Source: Neomelitea salexigens DSM 19753 (GTDB lineage: Bacteria; Pseudomonadota; Gammaproteobacteria; Pseudomonadales; Spongiibacteraceae). Taken from it: a stretch of 64,000 bases of DNA. The translations under genes and the position numbers were made by a program. This document shows, piece by piece, positions 25,148-36,490 of this stretch. A model generated the notes under the pieces. It was not told where the DNA came from, did no database searches, and saw only the letters and a program-made list of their open reading frames with translations. Position 1 is the stretch's first letter, and each line of letters opens with the position of its first letter. The stretch covers positions 124,001-188,000 of the forward strand of contig NZ_AULP01000003.1 in the NCBI RefSeq assembly GCF_000422345.1. Reading direction: 5' to 3'.

Positions 25148-26224
25148 ATGAACAAGCCCCTGCGCGAACCCTACATTATCGAAACCAAGCCCCTGCCAGA
25201 GCGCTACGCGAGGGGCTGGCATTGTCTGGGCAAAGCCAGCAGTTTTGGCTGCGAGCCTGCGGCATTAAATTATTTTGGCAGTAAATGGGTGGCGTTTCGC
25301 GGAGAGGAGAGCGGCGAGCTATTTGTGGTCGGCTCGTATTGCCCACATATGGGGGCGGACCTGAGCCGTGGCAAAGTGTGCGGAAACTCGCTGCGCTGCC
25401 CCTTCCATGAGTGGAGCTGGGGTGGCGATGGGGTGTGTGACGATATCCCCTATGCCGACCGCATTCCCCCGAAAGCAGTGATTCCCTCGATGCCGGTTAT
25501 GGAAGAAAACGGCCTCGCCTTTGTCTGGCACGACCCGGAGGGTCACCCACCCATTCCCGAGCAGCGTCCACGCCGCAACAGTGATTATTTTTCTGGGGAG
25601 TGGTCCGACTGGAATATTGCCGAATTTACCATTCACTCCAACTGTCGTGAGCTGGTCGATAACATGGCCGATATGGCGCACTTCGGCCCTGTTCACTACT
25701 CCCAAGTGCAGACCTTCAAAAACATTCAAGACGGGCACACCTACACTCAGGTGATGTCTGGTGGCCACGATATTCTGGCCGACGAGGGCCAGGGCTTTAC
25801 CTCCGTTGCAACCTACGAAGGGCCCGCGTATATGACCACTACCATGGTCGGTTCGATGGACGGGCGAGAAGTGATGACCCACCTGCTGGTGAGCCACGTG
25901 CCGGTAAACATGGAAGAGTTCATCATTCGCTTAGGCGTCATGGTTAAAAAAGACCCCAGCCTGAGCGAAGAGGGAAACGCCGCCTTAGTGCAAGCGTACA
26001 CGCAGATGTCAGTCGACTCCTTCGTGCAGGACGTCGAAATTTGGAACAACAAAGTTCGCATTGATAACCCACTAATGTGCGACGGCGACGGCCCGATTAA
26101 TATGCTGCGCAAGTGGTACAGTCAGTTCTACATGGATGTTGCGGACATCCCGGATAACATCACCGCGCTGAAAGAGCACGAAACGCGTATCAAGTACCCC
26201 CACGCTCAGGCGGAGTCAGAGTAA
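25148..26224 (+). CDS. kshA: Rieske oxygenase, 3-ketosteroid 9-alpha-hydroxylase type (KshA-like)
   Basis: Terminal oxygenase component that would hydroxylate a steroid at C9, opening ring B. The 358 residues contain a Rieske [2Fe-2S] site CPH...CPFH (Cys65, His67, Cys84, His87) and a mononuclear iron site (Asn172/Asp175 with His178 and His183 in DNMADMAHFGPVHY, and Asp295 in QDVEIW). The stretch PHMGADLSRGKVCGNSLRCP and WSWGGDGVC closely follow mycobacterial KshA. A reductase partner (KshB) is not present nearby. The gene is first of a four-gene operon, and its stop overlaps the next ATG. Other Rieske oxygenases acting on bulky terpenoids are the main alternative. Confidence 0.82.
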   Translation: MNKPLREPYIIETKPLPERYARGWHCLGKASSFGCEPAALNYFGSKWVAFRGEESGELFVVGSYCPHMGADLSRGKVCGNSLRCPFHEWSWGGDGVCDDIPYADRIPPKAVIPSMPVMEENGLAFVWHDPEGHPPIPEQRPRRNSDYFSGEWSDWNIAEFTIHSNCRELVDNMADMAHFGPVHYSQVQTFKNIQDGHTYTQVMSGGHDILADEGQGFTSVATYEGPAYMTTTMVGSMDGREVMTHLLVSHVPVNMEEFIIRLGVMVKKDPSLSEEGNAALVQAYTQMSVDSFVQDVEIWNNKVRIDNPLMCDGDGPINMLRKWYSQFYMDVADIPDNITALKEHETRIKYPHAQAESE

Positions 26225-27117
26225 TGTCACTGACACGCATTAACGCTCTTGGTTATGTGCTGATCGAGACCCGTGACACCGCCCAGTGGGCGCACTTTCT
26301 CACGCAGGTTGTTGGCCTGCAGGCGGCGGGCCGCTCGGCGGACTGGGACCTCTATAAAATGGACGCTTACTGCTGGCGAGTCGCTGTCGTGCACGGCGAG
26401 CGTGAGCGCTTTCATACAGCGGGCTGGGAGCTTGCCGCCTATGAGGATTTGGAAGCGCTGAGTACGCGTTTGGCCGAGCAGGGCGTACACGTCAGCCGCC
26501 TGAGCGATACCGCATGCGCGCAGCGCAAAATACGTGACGGACTGGCCCTTAACGACCCTAGCGGTCAGCGAGTTGAACTGGTGAAAAGCTGCGCGCTGGA
26601 CTGTTTAGCCCTGCAAAGCGATGTCGGTGTGCCAGCGTTTGAAACCGGTTTCAACGGTGACATGGGGCTGGGGCACTATGTGTTGCCGACCCGAGAGTTC
26701 GACGCCTGTATCGATTTTTATCACAGGCTGCTGGGTTTTGAGTTTACCGACTCCATGCAGCTGGGCGAGCAGGGCCTGCGCTTTCTTCATGTCGATAACC
26801 CCCGGCACCACAGCCTGGCCATTTATCAAGACCCGAATCCGGCGGCGAGTGGCTGTGTGCACCTGATGTTTGAGGTGCCAGACCTCGATCAACTGGGACT
26901 GTTCATGGACCGTTGCCGCAGCCACAACGTTGGTGTGGCCGCGTCGCTGGGCAAACACTGCAATGACCAGATGGTATCGGTGTATGTAAATAGCCCAGGC
27001 GGTTTTGCGATTGAGTTTGGCTGCGGCGGATTGCAGCTGGATTGGCAACACTACCGTCCCACCTTTAGTACGCGCCCCTCACAGTGGGGCCATCACTGGC
27101 AGCACGCCGACAACTAG
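26224..27117 (+). CDS. hsaC: Extradiol ring-cleavage dioxygenase (HsaC/TesB-like)
   Basis: A type I extradiol dioxygenase of 297 residues expected to cleave a catechol meta to the hydroxyls, as HsaC does to the aromatised A ring of steroids. It has two tandem VOC domains. The iron ligands lie in the second domain: His151 (LGHYVLP), His213 (CVHLMFEV) and Glu264 (FAIEFG). The catalytic His of the family lies in PRHHSLAI (His195/196). Biphenyl-type BphC enzymes share this architecture, and the KshA/HsaA neighbours favour a steroid catechol. It overlaps kshA by one base and ends 21 bases before the monooxygenase gene. Confidence 0.83.
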   Translation: MSLTRINALGYVLIETRDTAQWAHFLTQVVGLQAAGRSADWDLYKMDAYCWRVAVVHGERERFHTAGWELAAYEDLEALSTRLAEQGVHVSRLSDTACAQRKIRDGLALNDPSGQRVELVKSCALDCLALQSDVGVPAFETGFNGDMGLGHYVLPTREFDACIDFYHRLLGFEFTDSMQLGEQGLRFLHVDNPRHHSLAIYQDPNPAASGCVHLMFEVPDLDQLGLFMDRCRSHNVGVAASLGKHCNDQMVSVYVNSPGGFAIEFGCGGLQLDWQHYRPTFSTRPSQWGHHWQHADN

Positions 27118-27138
27118 CAAGAATTGAGGTAGAAAATA

Positions 27139-28320
27139 ATGAGTGATTTTAACCGTAGTAAACAGCTGTTGCTCGACGCCCGCGCCATGGTTCCCGCCCT
27201 GCTTGAGCGTCAAGGCGAGGCAGCGTCACTGGGTCGCCTGCCGGATGCCACCATTGCCGAGATGCAGCGCAGCGGATTTTTCAAGATTATGCAGCCAGCC
27301 CGCTACGGCGGCTATGAGCTTCCTCCCCAGCAATTTTTTGATGTGCAGCAAACCCTTGCCGAGGGCTGTATGTCGACCGCGTGGGTACTGGGCGTAGTCG
27401 CTATCCACAATTGGCAGCTGGGTATGTTTGACGACCGCGCACAGCAAGATGTGTGGGGCGACGACGACTCCACGTTGATCTCGTCCTCATACATGCCAGT
27501 GGGTAAGGTAAAACGTGTCGAAGGGGGGTATATGCTGTCTGGACACTGGGGTTTTTCCTCGGGTTCCAAACACTGTAAATGGGCATTTTTGGGGGGCATG
27601 GTGCCACCAGTGGCCGACGAAGCCCCGGACTACCGGACCTTTTTGGTGCCGCTGGGCGACTATGACATCGTCGATAACTGGGGTGTGAGCGGCCTTCAGG
27701 GAACGGGCTCGAACGACATCGTGATCAAAGAACCGGTGTTTGTACCCGAGTACCGCACCCACCGCAGTGCGGACGGTTTTAGCGGCGATAACCCAGGTTG
27801 TAAGGAAAATGCTAATGCCATTTTCCGCCTGCCGTTTGGACAGATTTTCACTCGCGCGGTTGCCTGCTCCTCCATTGGCGCCTTGCAGGGTGTGGTAGAC
27901 AGCTACGTTGAGGTGAATCGCAATCGCGTTGGTTTGAACGATGGTGCACGTGCGGCCAAAGACCCCAATGTGCAAATGGCTCTGGCCAATGCCGTGTCGG
28001 CAATTACCGAGTGCCGGGTAATGCTCAAAGATGATCTGGCGTATTTTGTGAATACCGCCGAGGCCGGTGACACACCCGCCATTGAGCAGCGCATTCAGCG
28101 CCGTTTCCACGCTGCCAGTATCTCCCGCAAGTGCGCCGATGCCGTGAATGAGCTTTTCATCGCCTGTGGCGCACAGGGAATCTTTTGCGGTCATCCGCTC
28201 AATCGTGCGTGGTTGGATATTAATGCTGGCCGCCAACACGTTGCGAATAACCCCTTCAAGTTTGGCCGCAATTTGGGTGCTACAATGCTGGGACAGCCGA
28301 ATACGGACTTCTTCCTTTGA
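27139..28320 (+). CDS. hsaA: Flavin-dependent monooxygenase, HsaA-like (acyl-CoA dehydrogenase fold)
   Basis: Oxygenase subunit of 393 residues that probably hydroxylates a phenolic steroid ring to the catechol cleaved by the preceding dioxygenase. It has the acyl-CoA-dehydrogenase fold of group D flavin monooxygenases. Conserved with HsaA are RLPD near the N-terminus, GGYMLSGHWGFSSGS, GLQGTGSNDIVIK and the C-terminal DINAGRQHVANNPFKFGRN. A small flavin reductase (HsaB) is expected as partner but is not in the window. A Shine-Dalgarno (TTGAGGTAGAAAATA) precedes it. Its stop lies 11 bases before the globin ATG. Confidence 0.84.
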   Translation: MSDFNRSKQLLLDARAMVPALLERQGEAASLGRLPDATIAEMQRSGFFKIMQPARYGGYELPPQQFFDVQQTLAEGCMSTAWVLGVVAIHNWQLGMFDDRAQQDVWGDDDSTLISSSYMPVGKVKRVEGGYMLSGHWGFSSGSKHCKWAFLGGMVPPVADEAPDYRTFLVPLGDYDIVDNWGVSGLQGTGSNDIVIKEPVFVPEYRTHRSADGFSGDNPGCKENANAIFRLPFGQIFTRAVACSSIGALQGVVDSYVEVNRNRVGLNDGARAAKDPNVQMALANAVSAITECRVMLKDDLAYFVNTAEAGDTPAIEQRIQRRFHAASISRKCADAVNELFIACGAQGIFCGHPLNRAWLDINAGRQHVANNPFKFGRNLGATMLGQPNTDFFL

Positions 28321-28331
28321 GTGAGGCTGCG

Positions 28332-28712
28332 ATGCAAACGCCATACGAGATTTTGGGTGAACGAGGTATTCGCGATGTTGTTGCCGAGTTCTATCGCTTG
28401 ATGGACAGTGAGCCAGCCTATGAAGAAATTCGCGCCATGCACACGCCGGACCTCGGTCCGGTAAGTGAGCAGCTGAGTCTGTATCTGATCAGCTGGATGG
28501 GCGGGCCCCCCGTGTATGCCGAGCGTAACGGCAGTATGTGCATTACCGCGGCGCACCGGGGCCTGGGGCTGGCTCCTAGACACAGTCAGCAATGGCTGGA
28601 CTGCTTCGCGCAGGCGTTGCAGCCGCGCGATGACGCCGAATTATTGCAAAAAATGCTGTTGCCAGCCTTGCGGCGAATCACTGATATGTTGGAGCGCTCA
28701 GCGGCTGAATGA
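28332..28712 (+). CDS. Group II truncated haemoglobin
   Basis: A 126-residue globin of the truncated, group II type. Tyr21 is the expected B10 tyrosine, GGPPVYAERNG matches the conserved E-helix/EF turn, His75 (TAAHRGLGL) is the expected proximal haem ligand and Trp88 (QQWLDCF) the conserved G8 tryptophan. Such globins bind O2 tightly and can help O2 chemistry or NO/peroxide defence. The ATG at 28332 has GTGAGG just upstream; a TTG at 28317 is a less likely start. Co-transcription with oxygenases is suggested by the 11-base gap. A role in supplying or sensing O2 for them is inference. Confidence 0.85.
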   Translation: MQTPYEILGERGIRDVVAEFYRLMDSEPAYEEIRAMHTPDLGPVSEQLSLYLISWMGGPPVYAERNGSMCITAAHRGLGLAPRHSQQWLDCFAQALQPRDDAELLQKMLLPALRRITDMLERSAAE

Positions 28713-30055: not shown

Positions 30056-30919
30056 TTAGCGGCTGTGCGACGCCAGAAATGCGGTAATAGCTGCTTGCGC
30101 AGTGGGTTCAGTGAGCAGGGGGGCATGCCCCGTATCGGCGATCTCCAGTACGTTGAGGTCAGGTTTGATGGCCTGCATGCGCGCCACGCAGTGGCGGCTG
30201 AGCAAGTCTGACAACTCGCCGCGCAACAGTAACATTGGTGTAGCGGCGGCGGCCTCAAACAGGGGCCACAGGTCCGGGGGGATGCCGTCGCTGTCCGCTT
30301 GCAGGGGGACGGCGATGTTGGGGTCGTAGTTCAATACCGGCTGGCCGTCGCTGTTTTCCACGTAAAGGTTGCGGGTAAAGGTTTGCCAGTCCTCATCATT
30401 AAATAGCGGGTACTCACGCTGTTGCGTATCGCGGGTACGCTGCACAGCCTCCTGCCAGGTGGTGATCGGTGGTGGACTTGCACAGACATAGGCCTTAATA
30501 CGCGCAATGCCTTCGGGGTTGGCTTCGGGGCCGATGTCGTTGATCACCGCGCCATGGATGCGCGCGCCCGATGTTGCGCACAATATCATCGAGGTTAGCC
30601 CGCCCAGCGATGTGCCGATCAGCTTCACCCTGTCCAATTGCTTGGCGTCCATCAGCGCCAGTACATCGGCGGCATAGGTAGCGGGTTGGTAGTTGTCTGG
30701 GTTGCCGTCGTAGTCAGAGCGGCCGCGGCCGCGCAGGTCAACGGCGAGCAGGTGATAGTGTGACGAGAGCTCCTCGCACAGCAGGGCAAAGTCTGCTGAG
30801 CTTCGCGTTAGTCCCGGAATACAAATGATACTGTCTGCGTTTTCATCGCCATATTCCCTTGCGTACAGTTTCAGTCCGTCGCTACTGGTATACCAATAGT
30901 CGTTATAGTTTTTAGACAT
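30056..30919 (-). CDS. Alpha/beta-hydrolase
   Basis: A 287-residue cytoplasmic alpha/beta-hydrolase without a signal peptide. The nucleophile elbow is GTSLGG, the acid is probably the Asp in LRGELSDLLS and the histidine is in DTGHAPLL. The oxyanion segment IPGLTRSSADF is also clear. The substrate is unknown; an ester or a meta-cleavage product is possible, but the GNSxGG motif typical of HsaD is absent. The ATG at 30919 gives a normal family N-terminus; upstream in-frame sequence overlaps the TonB receptor gene and is rejected. A strong terminator lies between it and the TonB receptor gene upstream, so it depends on read-through or its own promoter. Confidence 0.85.
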   Translation of the reverse strand: MSKNYNDYWYTSSDGLKLYAREYGDENADSIICIPGLTRSSADFALLCEELSSHYHLLAVDLRGRGRSDYDGNPDNYQPATYAADVLALMDAKQLDRVKLIGTSLGGLTSMILCATSGARIHGAVINDIGPEANPEGIARIKAYVCASPPPITTWQEAVQRTRDTQQREYPLFNDEDWQTFTRNLYVENSDGQPVLNYDPNIAVPLQADSDGIPPDLWPLFEAAAATPMLLLRGELSDLLSRHCVARMQAIKPDLNVLEIADTGHAPLLTEPTAQAAITAFLASHSR

Positions 30920-30938: not shown

Positions 30939-30977
30939 AAAAAGGCCCGGAGGCAGCCAACGTGCCTGGCTCCGGGC
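30939..30977 (-). terminator. Rho-independent terminator of the TonB receptor gene
   Basis: On the minus strand a 7-bp outer stem (GCCCGGA/TCCGGGC, with an inner GGCA/TGCC stem) starts 14 bases after the receptor stop and is followed directly by TTTTT. This is a convincing intrinsic terminator separating the receptor gene from the hydrolase gene. Confidence 0.8.
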
Positions 30978-30990
30978 AACGGGGCGCGTA

Positions 30991-33288
30991 TTAGAAGGCG
31001 TAGCTGACGCTGGCAGTCCAGGTGCGCGGCGCGCCGTAGAATGCCAGCTCGCCTGAGGCGAGGTTGTAGCCACCGGTTTTGTATTCCTTGTCTTCGATGT
31101 TTTTCACAAACACACTCACCGTCCAATGCTCGTCGGCGGAGTACCAGTTGGCACTGGCGTCGAGCAGGGTATAGGACTCGTCCTGGTCGCAGCTGCACTC
31201 AACGTTGTTGAAGTTGCGCGATGCATCGCGGTAAGACAGGGCGCTGTTCAAGGCGATACGACCGGCGTTGCCAAGGTCTTTCTCATAATTTAGCGCAAAC
31301 TGGCCCGTCCAGTTGGGTGCATTGAGCATTTCCCAGCTGTCGGAAACATCCTGTCCGCCCGACTGCACCTCGGTGAGCTCGGCATTCATGTATCCCAGTG
31401 CGAGAGAGCTGCTCAGACCATCGGTGATTTGCAGCAGTGACTCCAGTTCCGCGCCGCGTATCTCGGCGGTACCCGCGTTCACAACGTCAGAAGAGAAGAA
31501 TACCGGCGCGGGTTGGGCTGTCTGCACCGTGAGTTGCATGTCGTCATAGGCCATATCGAAAACGGTGGCGTTAAGGCGAATGCGGTCGTTCCAAAGCTGT
31601 GATTTAACACCGAGTTCCCAGGTCTCAACGGTTTCCGGATCGTAGCCTTTGGCGATATCCGGGTTTTTGCTGGCGTCGCCGCGCATATCAAAGCCGCCGG
31701 ATTTAAAGCCTTCGGCATAGCTCACATAGAACATCACGGCATCGTTCATCTGCCAGTCGAGCTTGATACTGGGGCTAATCTCATTCCAGTCTTTGTCGGC
31801 GTCTTTATCGCTGATGTCGGTAAAGGTTGCCAGCAGGGTATCGTTGGCCGGGTCACCGTGGGTAAAGCCGGAGCCCTGCTGCGTGCTATAGGGGAAGGAG
31901 TTAGTGGTGTTATACGCCAGGCGCTGAATGTTTGAGTTCTTTTCGTCATTGGTCCAGCGCATGCCGGCCGTTAGGGTCAGGCTGTCGCTGAGGTCATAGT
32001 TCACATTGGCGTAGATCGAGGTGCTGGTGGTATCCACATCACCGCCGATCGCCAGATCGTAGTGGTCGCCATCCATGTATGGGGTGCCGCCGAGTCCGTT
32101 GAGTACCACGTCGAAGGCACCGGCTGAGTTGCCGGTGAAATAATAGAGGCCACCGACAAAGGCCAGGCGGCCGCTGCCGTAGTTAAATTGCAGCTCGTGG
32201 GACTCCTGCTCATCGCTGTACTTGGCGGGTACGTCGAAGGCGTCCAGCGGGGTTCCGTCAAAGTCGATGAACTGCTGGGTTTCACCCTCGCGGTTGGCGT
32301 AGATGTACTTCACCACCACATTGTCAGACAAGTCGTAATCGGCGGTTAAGGAGAAGCCGCTGTTCTCCACATTGGATTTATGAGTGGTGCCGCAGGCGCC
32401 GTCGTAGGGGTTGCTTGAGCGTTCAAACGGCTGGCCGTTGGCGGGGTGTGTCAGGGCTGTGGGGCTGGACTGTGAGCCGCAGCGCTGGTTGCTGTTGTCA
32501 TCGGTGCGATCGCCGGCGACGCGAATAAACAGCCGGTCACTTGGGGTGTATTCCGCGCTCAGGCGTGCGACAAGCACATCCTTGTTGTAGTTTTCCTGGC
32601 TGCTGCTATAGGTGCCGGTGTTGATGTCATAGCCGGTATCAACATCGCCAAAACCGTCGCGAGTGAGTTTCGCAATAGCCGCACCGACATAGAGCTGTTC
32701 GTCGAGAATTGGCAGCTGTGCAGACAGCATCATGTCGCGTTGGTTGTAGGCGCCAACGGCAGTGGTGATCTTCGCTTCGGCATCGCCCGTCATTCTGCGA
32801 GTGATGTACTTGATCGCGCCGCCTACGGTGTTTTTGCCATACAGGGTACCTTGTGGGCCGCGCAGCACTTCTATGCGTTCAACGTCGAAGACATCTAGCA
32901 CGGCTGCCTGTGGGCGAGCGTAGTAAACATCGTCGACATACACGCCGACACCGGGTTCAAACCCCCACAGCGGATCCTGTTGGCCCACGCCGCGAATATA
33001 CGCAGTGAGTGTGGAGTTGGTGGCGCGGCTGGCGCGCATTTGCGTGTTGGGGACATTTTTCTCCAGTTCGGTAACTGAAGTAATTCCCTTGTTTTCCAGC
33101 TCCAGTGCATTGAGCGAGGTAATCGATACCGGTACCTCTTGGAGGTTCTGTTCACGCTTTTGCGCGGTAACCAGTACTTCTTCCAGGGCGACGGCCTGCT
33201 GGGCCAGCGCCGATTGATGAATGCCGGCGACACTGCACAAGGCGATGAGGGCGGCGAGGGGTTTTTTGTCACTTTTTATACTTATCAT
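30991..33288 (-). CDS. TonB-dependent outer-membrane receptor
   Basis: A 765-residue importer. The signal peptide ends near SALAQ, followed by the TonB-box-like ALEEVLVTAQK, a plug domain (QNLQEVPVSITSL; RGPQGTLYGKNTVGGAIKYI) and a beta-barrel with a C-terminal Phe (ASVSYAF). It belongs to the same broad class as the receptor at 22009, used for organic nutrients. Its promoter region holds two TTCAAC-N4-GTTGAA palindromes identical in core to the one between the symporter and TetR genes, so it is probably repressed by that TetR protein. It likely brings in the compound handled by the neighbouring hydrolase, symporter and dehydrogenase. Confidence 0.93.
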   Translation of the reverse strand: MISIKSDKKPLAALIALCSVAGIHQSALAQQAVALEEVLVTAQKREQNLQEVPVSITSLNALELENKGITSVTELEKNVPNTQMRASRATNSTLTAYIRGVGQQDPLWGFEPGVGVYVDDVYYARPQAAVLDVFDVERIEVLRGPQGTLYGKNTVGGAIKYITRRMTGDAEAKITTAVGAYNQRDMMLSAQLPILDEQLYVGAAIAKLTRDGFGDVDTGYDINTGTYSSSQENYNKDVLVARLSAEYTPSDRLFIRVAGDRTDDNSNQRCGSQSSPTALTHPANGQPFERSSNPYDGACGTTHKSNVENSGFSLTADYDLSDNVVVKYIYANREGETQQFIDFDGTPLDAFDVPAKYSDEQESHELQFNYGSGRLAFVGGLYYFTGNSAGAFDVVLNGLGGTPYMDGDHYDLAIGGDVDTTSTSIYANVNYDLSDSLTLTAGMRWTNDEKNSNIQRLAYNTTNSFPYSTQQGSGFTHGDPANDTLLATFTDISDKDADKDWNEISPSIKLDWQMNDAVMFYVSYAEGFKSGGFDMRGDASKNPDIAKGYDPETVETWELGVKSQLWNDRIRLNATVFDMAYDDMQLTVQTAQPAPVFFSSDVVNAGTAEIRGAELESLLQITDGLSSSLALGYMNAELTEVQSGGQDVSDSWEMLNAPNWTGQFALNYEKDLGNAGRIALNSALSYRDASRNFNNVECSCDQDESYTLLDASANWYSADEHWTVSVFVKNIEDKEYKTGGYNLASGELAFYGAPRTWTASVSYAF

Positions 33289-33359: not shown

Positions 33360-33375
33360 TTCAACGTTTGTTGAA
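33360..33375. promoter_or_regulatory. TetR-type operator copy 1 (TTCAAC-N4-GTTGAA)
   Basis: TTCAAC-GTTT-GTTGAA, a perfect 6-bp inverted repeat with a 4-base centre, 72-87 bases upstream of the TonB receptor start. The core is identical to the sites at 33392 and 34931. In the direction of transcription it lies downstream of the promoter-like hexamers of copy 2. Confidence 0.7.
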
Positions 33376-33385
33376 TTCAGTTTCG

Positions 33386-33414
33386 ACGTTATTCAACGAT
33401 TGTTGAAAAGTCAA
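33386..33414 (-). promoter_or_regulatory. Promoter with embedded operator copy 2, TonB receptor gene
   Basis: On the minus strand TTGACT and TAACGT are separated by 17 bases, and the whole spacer is filled by the palindrome TTCAAC-GATT-GTTGAA (33392-33407). The -35 is good and the -10 is weak. The same geometry at the symporter promoter supports the reading: a repressor bound here would block RNA polymerase. Confidence 0.6.
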
Positions 33415-33455
33415 ATGAATTTTCTCCTTATGTATGCCGCGCTGTGCGAGGCCAG

Positions 33456-34892
33456 TTAGTTTTTCGCGTTGCGAATACGTAAGTAAGCCAGGCCGAGTAG
33501 CACGTAGGCGATGGATGTTAAAATGGCATAGCTCGCCGACACGGCGGGGTTGGCAATGCCACCAAAGAGGTTGAGGTAAAAGTGGATAAGCAGCGCGCTG
33601 ATCGACGCGCTGGCAATCAACGGTAGCGGTAAACTGCCGCGAAACAACACGCCAAATAGCATCGGCACGAGTGACGCTGCCGCTAAACCATAAACACCTT
33701 TCTGGGCGAATAAACCGATTAAGGGAGGTGGGTTCCAGGCGAGGGTTAAGCCAATGATTCCCACCATAATCAGGGTCCAGCGGGACCAGGCCAGGCCCTT
33801 GCTGCGGTTTTTGCTCAGCGGGGAGACAATATCATTCACCACCATCGCAGAGAGCGAGACAAGAATGCCGTCGAGGGTGCTCATCCCCGCAGCGAGCAGG
33901 GTGATAAAAATAAACGTCAATGTCAGCTCGCCGACCACACTGCCACTAAATTGATGCAACAGGTATTCGCGAACGACGGTGTCTTGTGCGCTGATTTCCA
34001 AGCCGTCGAGTCGCGCGTAAAGGCCGACCATCAGAATAAGCGTGAACAGCGTGCCGACCACAACTGTGGTGCCAATGAATTTGCCGATGTCCGCTTCGCT
34101 GCGTAAATACAGTACTTTAGTGAGAATATGCGGCTGTAACATCAGTGCAAAGGTGATGATAAAACCCGCGCCAAAAACCGAGAAAAAATCATAGTAAAGG
34201 TTGCTGTCGGTGTTCACTACCGCGGCGTAGCCTTCGCCAATATCGCGCAGCGAGGATAGAAAATCGCCGTTGAAATAGTCCGCGCCCTGGGCGAATAGCA
34301 GCAGGGTGACCACGATCATCATTATGCCTTGCAAGGTGTTGGTGTAGGCGTGGGCATAGGTGCCGCCCATCAGCACATAAGAGAATACAAACAACAACAC
34401 AATGACCAACGCTGGTTTTTGCTCGATAGGGAAGATGCCCGTCATCAACAGACTGCAACCGACCAGAATAAGCACTACGAAGCTCACCGATAATAAATTA
34501 ATAAAGGCGAAAACCAGGCTGAAGCCGCGGTGTTGGTAGCGGTGGTATATCCAGTCTGGAAGGGTCAATGCCTGCTTCTCTTCGCCGAGACGCAAGAAGC
34601 CGCGTGACAAGACTAAGAACGCGCTAAGAATGCCGGCCGACCCCGCGACGGCGTAGTGCATATAGGCAGAAACGCCGTGCACATAAACAAAGCCGGGGTT
34701 GATGACAAAGGTCGCCGTGGAGGCGATCGAGGCTGCCAGCGTAATGCCGATGATATAGGGGCTCATATCTTTGTTGCCGATGGCAAAGCCGCTAATGTCC
34801 TGCGTGCGGCGCATGCCTATCCAGGAGAGCCAGTAGACCAGTGCAACATAGCCACCAGTCAGCACATATTTAAAGACCTCTGTCGATATCAT
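33456..34892 (-). CDS. Sodium:solute symporter (SSS family)
   Basis: A 478-residue inner-membrane Na+-coupled transporter with about 12-13 helices. The N-terminal SWIGMRRTQDISGFAIGNKDMSPYIIGITLAASIASTATFVINPG is the family hallmark (Na+ and substrate region), and the later LAAGMSTLDGILVSLSAMVVNDI is the eighth-helix signature. The substrate class cannot be fixed by eye; relatives carry short-chain acids, amino acids, sugars or vitamins. ATG at 34892 has AAGGCGG upstream; an upstream in-frame ATG would start inside or before the operator and is rejected. A perfect palindrome lies in its promoter. Confidence 0.9.
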   Translation of the reverse strand: MISTEVFKYVLTGGYVALVYWLSWIGMRRTQDISGFAIGNKDMSPYIIGITLAASIASTATFVINPGFVYVHGVSAYMHYAVAGSAGILSAFLVLSRGFLRLGEEKQALTLPDWIYHRYQHRGFSLVFAFINLLSVSFVVLILVGCSLLMTGIFPIEQKPALVIVLLFVFSYVLMGGTYAHAYTNTLQGIMMIVVTLLLFAQGADYFNGDFLSSLRDIGEGYAAVVNTDSNLYYDFFSVFGAGFIITFALMLQPHILTKVLYLRSEADIGKFIGTTVVVGTLFTLILMVGLYARLDGLEISAQDTVVREYLLHQFSGSVVGELTLTFIFITLLAAGMSTLDGILVSLSAMVVNDIVSPLSKNRSKGLAWSRWTLIMVGIIGLTLAWNPPPLIGLFAQKGVYGLAAASLVPMLFGVLFRGSLPLPLIASASISALLIHFYLNLFGGIANPAVSASYAILTSIAYVLLGLAYLRIRNAKN

Positions 34893-34928
34893 GTACCATC
34901 CGCCTTGTATTTTATTTATTGGTGAGCC

Positions 34929-34957
34929 ACTATATTCAACAAGTGTTGAATATACAA
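34929..34957 (-). promoter_or_regulatory. Promoter with embedded TetR operator, symporter gene
   Basis: The half-sites TATATTCAACA and TGTTGAATATA form a perfect 11-bp inverted repeat with a 2-base centre at 34931-34954. Read on the minus strand, TTGTAT (34952-34957) and TATAGT (34929-34934) are 17 bases apart, so the palindrome core occupies the -35/-10 spacer. The divergent TetR gene begins 89 bases to the right, which suggests joint control of symporter and regulator. Confidence 0.8.
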
Positions 34958-35042: not shown

Positions 35043-35696
35043 ATGACAAGAAAAACAAATGCGGTGAAGAGCGAGCGAATACTGGACGTGGCAGAGGAGC
35101 TCTTTGCCCGTCACGGCTATGACGGCGTCACCATGCGGCAAATTTCCACTGGGGCAAAGGTGGATGTTGCATTGGCCAATTACCACTTCGGCAAGAAGTT
35201 AGATGTTTTCTACGCGGTGTTTAATCGCCGTGCAGAACACCTCGGAAGCACCCGCCGCCAGGTACTGCAGGAGCAGTTTACCGATGGAGAACCGCAGCGC
35301 TTAGAGCAGGTAATCGAGGCATTTTTGTTGCCGCTAAAGCTGGCTCAGGAGAGCGGTGATCCAGGCTGGAAAAACTACATGGCGCTGCTCGCCTATGTAA
35401 TGACATCGCCGGTGTGGAGCCGGGAAATGATGGAAAACACCTTTGACAAACACGTGGGCGATTTCATTGCCGCGCTGCGGCAGATTTTCCCAACGGCGCG
35501 GGATGAAGACCTGCACTGGTGTTATCACTATGTATCGGGTGCCCTGGCGCTAACCTTAGCGCAGACCGGTCGTATCGACCGCTTGTCGGGTGGCAAGTGT
35601 CTGTCGTCGGATTTTGATGCCGCCTATGACCGAATGATTCCCTTTATGGCCGCGGGCTTTCGCGCGGTATGTGGTGAAGAGCGAACTCCCCAATAA
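35043..35696 (+). CDS. TetR-family transcriptional regulator
   Basis: A 217-residue repressor. The N-terminal helix-turn-helix (SERILDVAEELFARHGYDGVTMRQISTGAKVDVALANYHFGKK) is classical TetR. The C-terminal ligand domain (about residues 80-217) resembles the CecR/YbiH type (MTSPVWSREMMENTF; FPTARDEDLHWCYHYVSGAL). ATG at 35043 is chosen; an upstream in-frame ATG would add eight residues. It is divergent from the symporter gene across a perfect palindrome, and the same palindrome core recurs twice before the TonB receptor gene. It is therefore the best candidate regulator of these genes and of itself. The dehydrogenase gene follows 20 bases later. Confidence 0.9.
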   Translation: MTRKTNAVKSERILDVAEELFARHGYDGVTMRQISTGAKVDVALANYHFGKKLDVFYAVFNRRAEHLGSTRRQVLQEQFTDGEPQRLEQVIEAFLLPLKLAQESGDPGWKNYMALLAYVMTSPVWSREMMENTFDKHVGDFIAALRQIFPTARDEDLHWCYHYVSGALALTLAQTGRIDRLSGGKCLSSDFDAAYDRMIPFMAAGFRAVCGEERTPQ

Positions 35697-35716: not shown

Positions 35717-36490
35717 ATGCGACACAAAACAGCGTTAGTTACCGGAGCGGCCAGCGGCATTGGGCTGGCCCTTGCGGCTGATTTATCGAAACAGGGTTTT
35801 CGAGTTTGCCTCACTGACGCTGACGAACAAGCGGTAACGAGCGCTGCCCAGTCACTGAACGGAGCGGCGGCTGAGGTATTGGCCCTGCCACTGGATGTTA
35901 CCAACCAAGAGCACATCAGCGGTGCGGTATCGCGTTTGGAGAACGAATGGGGCGGCGTCGATGTACTCATTAATAATGCGGGCATTCAACACGTAGCCTC
36001 CTTGGAGGACTTTCCCGTCGACCGCTGGAAATTGTTAACAGAGATTTTATTGGTTGGCCCAGCCCTGCTGAGTCGCGCCGTATTGCCGAGTATGCGAGCG
36101 CGAAACTTTGGCCGTATCGTCAATGTGGGCTCCATCCACTCGCTGGTGGCGTCGCCCCATAAGAGCGCGTACGTGGCGGCTAAGCACGGTTTGTTGGGCT
36201 TTTCCAAAACCGTCGCGCTGGAAACCGCAGATTGTGATATCACCATTAACACCCTGTGCCCGTCCTACGTAAAGACGGCGCTGGTGCAAAAGCAAATCAG
36301 CAGTCAGGCGCTGGCGCACGGTATTTCCGAGGATGAGGTGATCAATAAAATTATGCTCGAGCCGATGCCCAAAAAGAGCTTCATCGACATGGATGAGCTG
36401 TGCGGCGCGATGAATTTCTTGCTCAGTGATGCGGCGCGAAATATGACCGGCCAGGAAATGGTCATCGACGGTGGCTGGACTATTCGTTAA
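35717..36490 (+). CDS. bdhA: 3-hydroxybutyrate dehydrogenase-like SDR
   Basis: Probably oxidises (R)-3-hydroxybutyrate to acetoacetate with NAD. The 257-residue SDR has TGAASGIG, NNAGIQHVASLEDFP, NVGSIHSLVASPHKSAYVAAKHGL (catalytic Ser and Tyr-x-x-x-Lys) and LCPSYVKTALVQKQI, all of which are characteristic of bacterial D-beta-hydroxybutyrate dehydrogenases. GAGG lies upstream of the ATG. It follows the TetR gene by 20 bases and is likely co-transcribed. A related short 3-hydroxyacid or alcohol is possible, since the residues after the catalytic block differ slightly from typical BdhA. Confidence 0.82.
   Translation: MRHKTALVTGAASGIGLALAADLSKQGFRVCLTDADEQAVTSAAQSLNGAAAEVLALPLDVTNQEHISGAVSRLENEWGGVDVLINNAGIQHVASLEDFPVDRWKLLTEILLVGPALLSRAVLPSMRARNFGRIVNVGSIHSLVASPHKSAYVAAKHGLLGFSKTVALETADCDITINTLCPSYVKTALVQKQISSQALAHGISEDEVINKIMLEPMPKKSFIDMDELCGAMNFLLSDAARNMTGQEMVIDGGWTIR

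Follow-up and report, generated by a model that had tools for sequence, protein, structure and literature searches.

A TetR-family regulator encoded in the analysed window, a stretch of 64 kb, is likely to act as a ligand-released repressor on the palindrome TTCAACRNNYGTTGAA and to control the uptake of 3-hydroxybutyrate. The operator, its position in the promoters, its conservation, its co-occurrence with tetR and the operators at the depolymerase genes of relatives are read from the sequence; binding, sign of control, ligand and cargo are what we infer. The assignment of the regulator, its operator and its targets, a TonB-dependent receptor and a symporter, to one local regulon is very well supported by these sequence features.

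The exact motif TTCAACN4GTTGAA occurs three times in the window, at 33360-33375, 33392-33407 and 34935-34950 (all annotated on the minus strand). As a preliminary description of this DNA had stated, two copies precede the receptor gene and one lies between the symporter gene and tetR. The latter is the core of positions 34931-34954, which read TATATTCAACA-AG-TGTTGAATATA and indeed form the perfect 11+2+11 palindrome described there. The genome-wide scan that had been proposed as a check returns the same three exact copies in 3.44 Mb and none outside the locus, while the reversed pattern, used as control, occurs once. At the background rate of this control, three exact copies within 1.6 kb have a probability of ~2e-11. 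With up to 2 mismatches allowed, five matches are seen in the window vs. a shuffle mean of 1.7. Alignment of the sites of orthologous loci leads to the refined operator TTCAACRNNYGTTGAA, in which the central purine and pyrimidine are nearly invariant. Eleven further sites with one mismatch are found elsewhere in the genome. They were set aside as background since their number is roughly what the reversed control predicts and all of them break the rule for the two central bases.

Two of the operators are located within promoter-like sequences. The symporter promoter (34929-34957, minus strand) consists of TTGTAT (34957-34952), 17 bases (34951-34935) and TATAGT (34934-34929) and encloses the operator shared with the tetR side. 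The receptor promoter (33386-33414, minus strand) consists of TTGACT (33414-33409), 17 bases (33408-33392) and TAACGT (33391-33386), with receptor operator 1 (33392-33407) in its spacer. Each spacer is made up of the 16-base motif and one extra base. The earlier claim that the palindromes fill 17-base spacers therefore holds for the symporter copy and the upstream receptor copy, not for receptor operator 2 (33360-33375), which lies 32 bp downstream of operator 1, where transcription is expected to start. A generic promoter scan showed no excess over shuffles and listed neither of the two promoters. The hexamer pairs are too weak to be called alone, and the promoters are supported because they are conserved in orthologues: of 23 upstream receptor operators, 21 have TTGA at a distance of 7 bases on the upstream side and 19 have TAnnnT adjoining on the downstream side, and the symporter operator is accompanied by TTG in 24/29 and by TAnnnT in 21/29. 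Two Microbulbifer loci (L030 and L031) are exceptions to the receptor register, with TTGACA preceding a middle, weaker site. The geometry predicted to block the polymerase is a conserved property and reaches beyond one genome. A 15-base spacer for the receptor promoter gives a marginally higher mean -10 score among orthologues (8.87 vs. 8.65 for 17 bases); we kept 17 bases, as this edge comes from the GAA that is invariant in the operator. A promoter for tetR was looked for and none was identified, so that tetR is only presumed to be autoregulated.

Conservation was evaluated in 35 orthologous loci whose TetR is at least 46% identical to that of the window, the closest one in a named genome being that of Spongiibacter marinus DSM 17750 (100%). 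The holders are mostly marine bacteria and mostly Gammaproteobacteria. The exact motif is present near tetR in 31/35 loci, and a tandem pair with at most one mismatch precedes the receptor gene in 23/35. The sites of such pairs are mostly 28-34 bp apart, with spacings of 20-21 bp found twice and of 63 bp twice. The latter belong to Microbulbifer and contain the weaker middle site ~31-32 bp from each partner. These spacings suggest cooperative binding on the same face of the DNA; helical phasing is not established by them, given a variation of two thirds of a turn and the relatedness of the loci. In L030 and L031 there are thus three tandem sites before the receptor gene, spaced by ~31-32 bp, with TTGACA before the middle one.

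The genes under the operators belong to families that do not reveal the substrate. The TonB-dependent outer-membrane receptor (30991-33288, minus strand; PF07715 and PF00593) is present in 25 of the 35 loci and the sodium:solute symporter (33456-34892, minus strand; PF00474) in 26. Compared with the preliminary description, the likely substrate is new, and so is the gene which follows tetR by 20 bp on the plus strand (35717-36490), probably co-transcribed with it. Its product, a short-chain dehydrogenase, passes the model TIGR01963 for 3-hydroxybutyrate dehydrogenase (343.6 bits, cut-off 307.05), and hydroxybutyrate dehydrogenases make up all 13 of its best solved relatives. The active-site residues of the solved enzymes are Gln, Ser, His, Lys, Tyr, Gln and Trp. 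Aligned to 1wmb and 3v2h the dehydrogenase (Bdh) keeps them, with the Trp of CPGWV being Tyr as in 3v2h. An alpha/beta hydrolase (30056-30919, minus strand; PF00561) is encoded downstream of the receptor gene in the window and found in 24/35 loci. Its scores for PHB families all stay far short of the cut-offs, and it is possibly a cytoplasmic oligomer or ester hydrolase. The gap between receptor and hydrolase genes contains a terminator-like, GC-rich hairpin followed by CTTTTT (30944-30978, minus strand); its fold is no stronger than that of shuffles (z -0.66), and the generic scan mentioned above does not list it. This hairpin makes membership of the hydrolase less certain, and the gene may be only partly co-expressed in this species. 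A PHA synthase gene is located on contig C8 of the genome (158065-158568) and has no operator copy; synthesis of the storage polymer seems to lie outside the TetR regulon. Apart from the locus, the window holds on the plus strand (25148-28712) a cluster resembling aromatic or steroid ring degradation, without operator copies. It encodes a probable Rieske oxygenase (no family match), an HsaC/BphC-like extradiol dioxygenase and an HsaA-like monooxygenase followed by a small globin-like ORF, and all of its enzymes stay below equivalog cut-offs.

The degradation of PHB to acetyl-CoA proceeds via depolymerase, hydrolase, dehydrogenase, ligase and thiolase (PMC7830162). In the known pathway these are depolymerase, oligomer hydrolase, Bdh, acetoacetyl-CoA synthetase and thiolase; the window shares Bdh, and the depolymerase, ligase and thiolase found in relatives match further steps. 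The relatives also place the operator at depolymerase genes. In the window's genome the operator is confined to the locus and is conserved with it, and genome G151 adds an unlinked pair: its only exact sites away from tetR are two copies with a spacing of 37 bp immediately before a gene for a secreted short-chain PHA depolymerase (L137/L164). In four genomes with a TetR of 53-54% identity (L156, L159, L160 and L161) the depolymerase gene adjoins tetR and is preceded by a degenerate operator pair, 22 bp apart, in which one site is the symmetric TTCATCN4GATGAA. A site with one mismatch accompanies the depolymerase gene of L168. In G117, one locus holds both a depolymerase gene with a one-mismatch site and a 3-hydroxybutyrate dehydrogenase gene. 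Depolymerase genes are found downstream of the receptor gene on the same strand in L011, L013 and L144, and below the hydrolase gene in Sessilibacter and L013. The strand that carries the receptor gene of G242 continues with genes for the hydrolase, for homologues of the Microbulbifer thiolase and CoA ligase, and for a depolymerase; in L140 the dehydrogenase gene is inside the receptor operon. Among 30 depolymerase loci fetched, operators are present in 6 of the 7 from genomes with the TetR, and a pair in none of the 23 from other genomes. The substrate argument rests on positional association, because the genome-level association of TetR and depolymerase is modest (7/23 vs. 19/222, p 0.005). 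Taken together, these sequence data suggest that the regulon rather probably handles 3-hydroxybutyrate or a PHB-derived substrate. No type-1 secreted PHB depolymerase over the cut-off was found in the window's genome; the food here would hence consist of 3-hydroxybutyrate in free form or of oligomers that other organisms have produced.

The same regulator and operator might instead serve another carboxylic acid or ester, such as a medium-chain hydroxy acid or an aromatic or steroid-derived acid, with dehydrogenase and depolymerases being lineage-specific additions. This reading draws on the PsrA relatives of the regulator, which sense fatty acids (PMC13104628), on NicR as second solved relative, on the HsaA/HsaC-like cluster 3-8 kb away in the window, and on the Halieaceae, most of whose loci carry a general acyl-CoA ligase and no adjacent bdh. 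We consider it unlikely, though the most serious competitor, as several lineages have PHB-depolymerase genes that carry the operator or adjoin the locus, bdh is next to tetR or to the receptor gene in two different arrangements, and the steroid-type genes are free of operators. Import of oligomers through the TonB-dependent receptor is conceivable, with the odds somewhat against it. Equally tentative is the broader idea of a dedicated, widespread locus for bioplastic scavenging that would resemble a polysaccharide utilisation locus: the receptor would import ester-linked oligomers released from PHB, and the repressor would in some species switch a secreted depolymerase, too.

The pairing of regulator and operator was evaluated across the order. 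Among 245 genomes the refined motif is present in 19/19 with a TetR of at least 58% identity vs. 27/226 others (Fisher 4e-16; the genome and locus counts are related by descent and Fisher values overstate their independence), and nearly all of these 27 have a single copy. Within the genus, all six genomes that encode a close TetR contain two or three sites, while none of the 12 others has any. Stronger support for the pairing comes from loci with another gene order or another transporter, in which the sites are retained. Those of the Hyphomonas type, L033 and L036, have an MFS transporter in place of the symporter and the receptor gene on the opposite side of tetR, and an exact site is kept in both intergenic regions (at tetR and at the receptor gene). 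In L145 tetR and the receptor gene are immediate neighbours in divergent orientation with two sites in between, and in L032, where only a CoA ligase and the hydrolase accompany tetR, the sites are kept. The two Hyphomonas loci L034 and L035 have no exact operator at tetR although their recognition helix is identical. With layout and register conserved, sites co-occurring with the TetR and surviving rearrangement, the proposal that regulator, operator and targets can be read from the sequence is supported. Neighbourhood alone is no proof of pairing, and a different, unlinked regulator could bind the palindromes with the adjacent TetR as bystander; this is very improbable, given that tetR is the one gene constant through all rearranged loci bearing the operator, that sites and TetR co-occur, and that the footprints of the TetR-like SACE_5754 on TTCAACATGCGTTGAA and TCAACACTTGTTGA (PMC6346578) indicate that the fold can read such a sequence.

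The regulator itself (35043-35696, plus strand) shows the composition of the TetR family, an N-terminal TetR_N helix-turn-helix (PF00440) and a C-terminal ligand domain, TetR_C_30 (PF17939), both above gathering scores. Its best solved relatives are PsrA of Pseudomonas (2fbq) and then NicR (5fhp). With PsrA it shares both domains and palindromic operators in promoters, and the PsrA sites GAAACN4GTTTC and TTCAAACN4GTTTGAA (PMC13104628) resemble the operator of the locus. In contrast, identity to PsrA is at the ~30% level and the NCBIfam PsrA model gives 100.4 bits at a cut-off of 300. The half-site TTCAAC is one base shorter than TTCAAAC of PsrA, and TTCAACRNNYGTTGAA has CAAC instead of the AAAC half-sites of the PsrA consensus G/CAAACN2-4GTTTG/C. 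The recognition helices read VDVALANYHFG in the window and VNLAAVNYHFG in PsrA, and a local transport regulon is opposed to control of fatty acids and rpoS. By neither of the two defining features, model score and operator, is the regulator PsrA, and its sequence places it in a PsrA-like but distinct family. NicR, the TetR repressor of the nicotinate pathway (5fhp, 5fgl), is related over the full length and differs in ligand and targets. The operator of SACE_5754 from Saccharopolyspora erythraea is practically the same as that of the locus, its DNase I footprints including AAATCAACACTTGTTGAATTA and GTTATTCAACATGCGTTGAAAACT (PMC6346578); the likeness described here is that of the operator sequence; this regulator belongs to another phylum and has other targets (0388, 3599, 6149). 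PsrA activates rpoS in Pseudomonas (PMC13104628), yet an activating or mixed role of the window's TetR is hardly to be expected, since operators that lie between -35 and -10 and over the start, in a conserved register, should block the polymerase.

Based on this analysis, the TetR protein would act as a dimeric repressor on TTCAACRNNYGTTGAA. If no inducer is available, a dimer would occupy the -35/-10 spacer of both the symporter and the receptor promoter and exclude RNA polymerase, and a second dimer over the start of the receptor transcript would tighten the control. The same control probably extends to the divergent pair tetR-bdh. Release of the repressor from the DNA would be brought about by 3-hydroxybutyrate, its oligomers or a CoA derivative. 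The compound would then cross the outer membrane through the receptor and the inner one through the symporter. Ester-linked oligomers may be cleaved by the hydrolase, and acetoacetate would be produced by the dehydrogenase. In relatives the set is extended by a CoA ligase, a thiolase and a secreted PHB depolymerase.

The locus appears to follow the usual scheme in which a TetR protein represses nearby genes for catabolic uptake; the regulon as such is probably new, no description of it having been found in the freely accessible papers searched. PMC7830162, which describes the PHB pathway, mentions neither TonB nor TetR, and a TetR operator common to a TonB receptor and a symporter is absent from it. 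Regulator, operator and probable substrate can hereby be assigned to a conserved locus whose receptor and symporter are otherwise generically named. If the substrate is right, TTCAACRNNYGTTGAA beside a PsrA-like TetR would mark, at the sequence level, bacteria that import the products of PHB breakdown. The question whether TonB-dependent transport moves polyester oligomers becomes testable.

Degenerate operators, including the symmetric TTCATCN4GATGAA, are seen in the genomes with a TetR of 53-54% identity (L142, L143, L156, L159, L160 and L161). Recognition helix and operator do not covary strictly, as helices of the YYFG type occur with both TTCAAC and TTCATC sites. The loci with TTCATCN4GATGAA could serve the study of joint change in operator and recognition helix.
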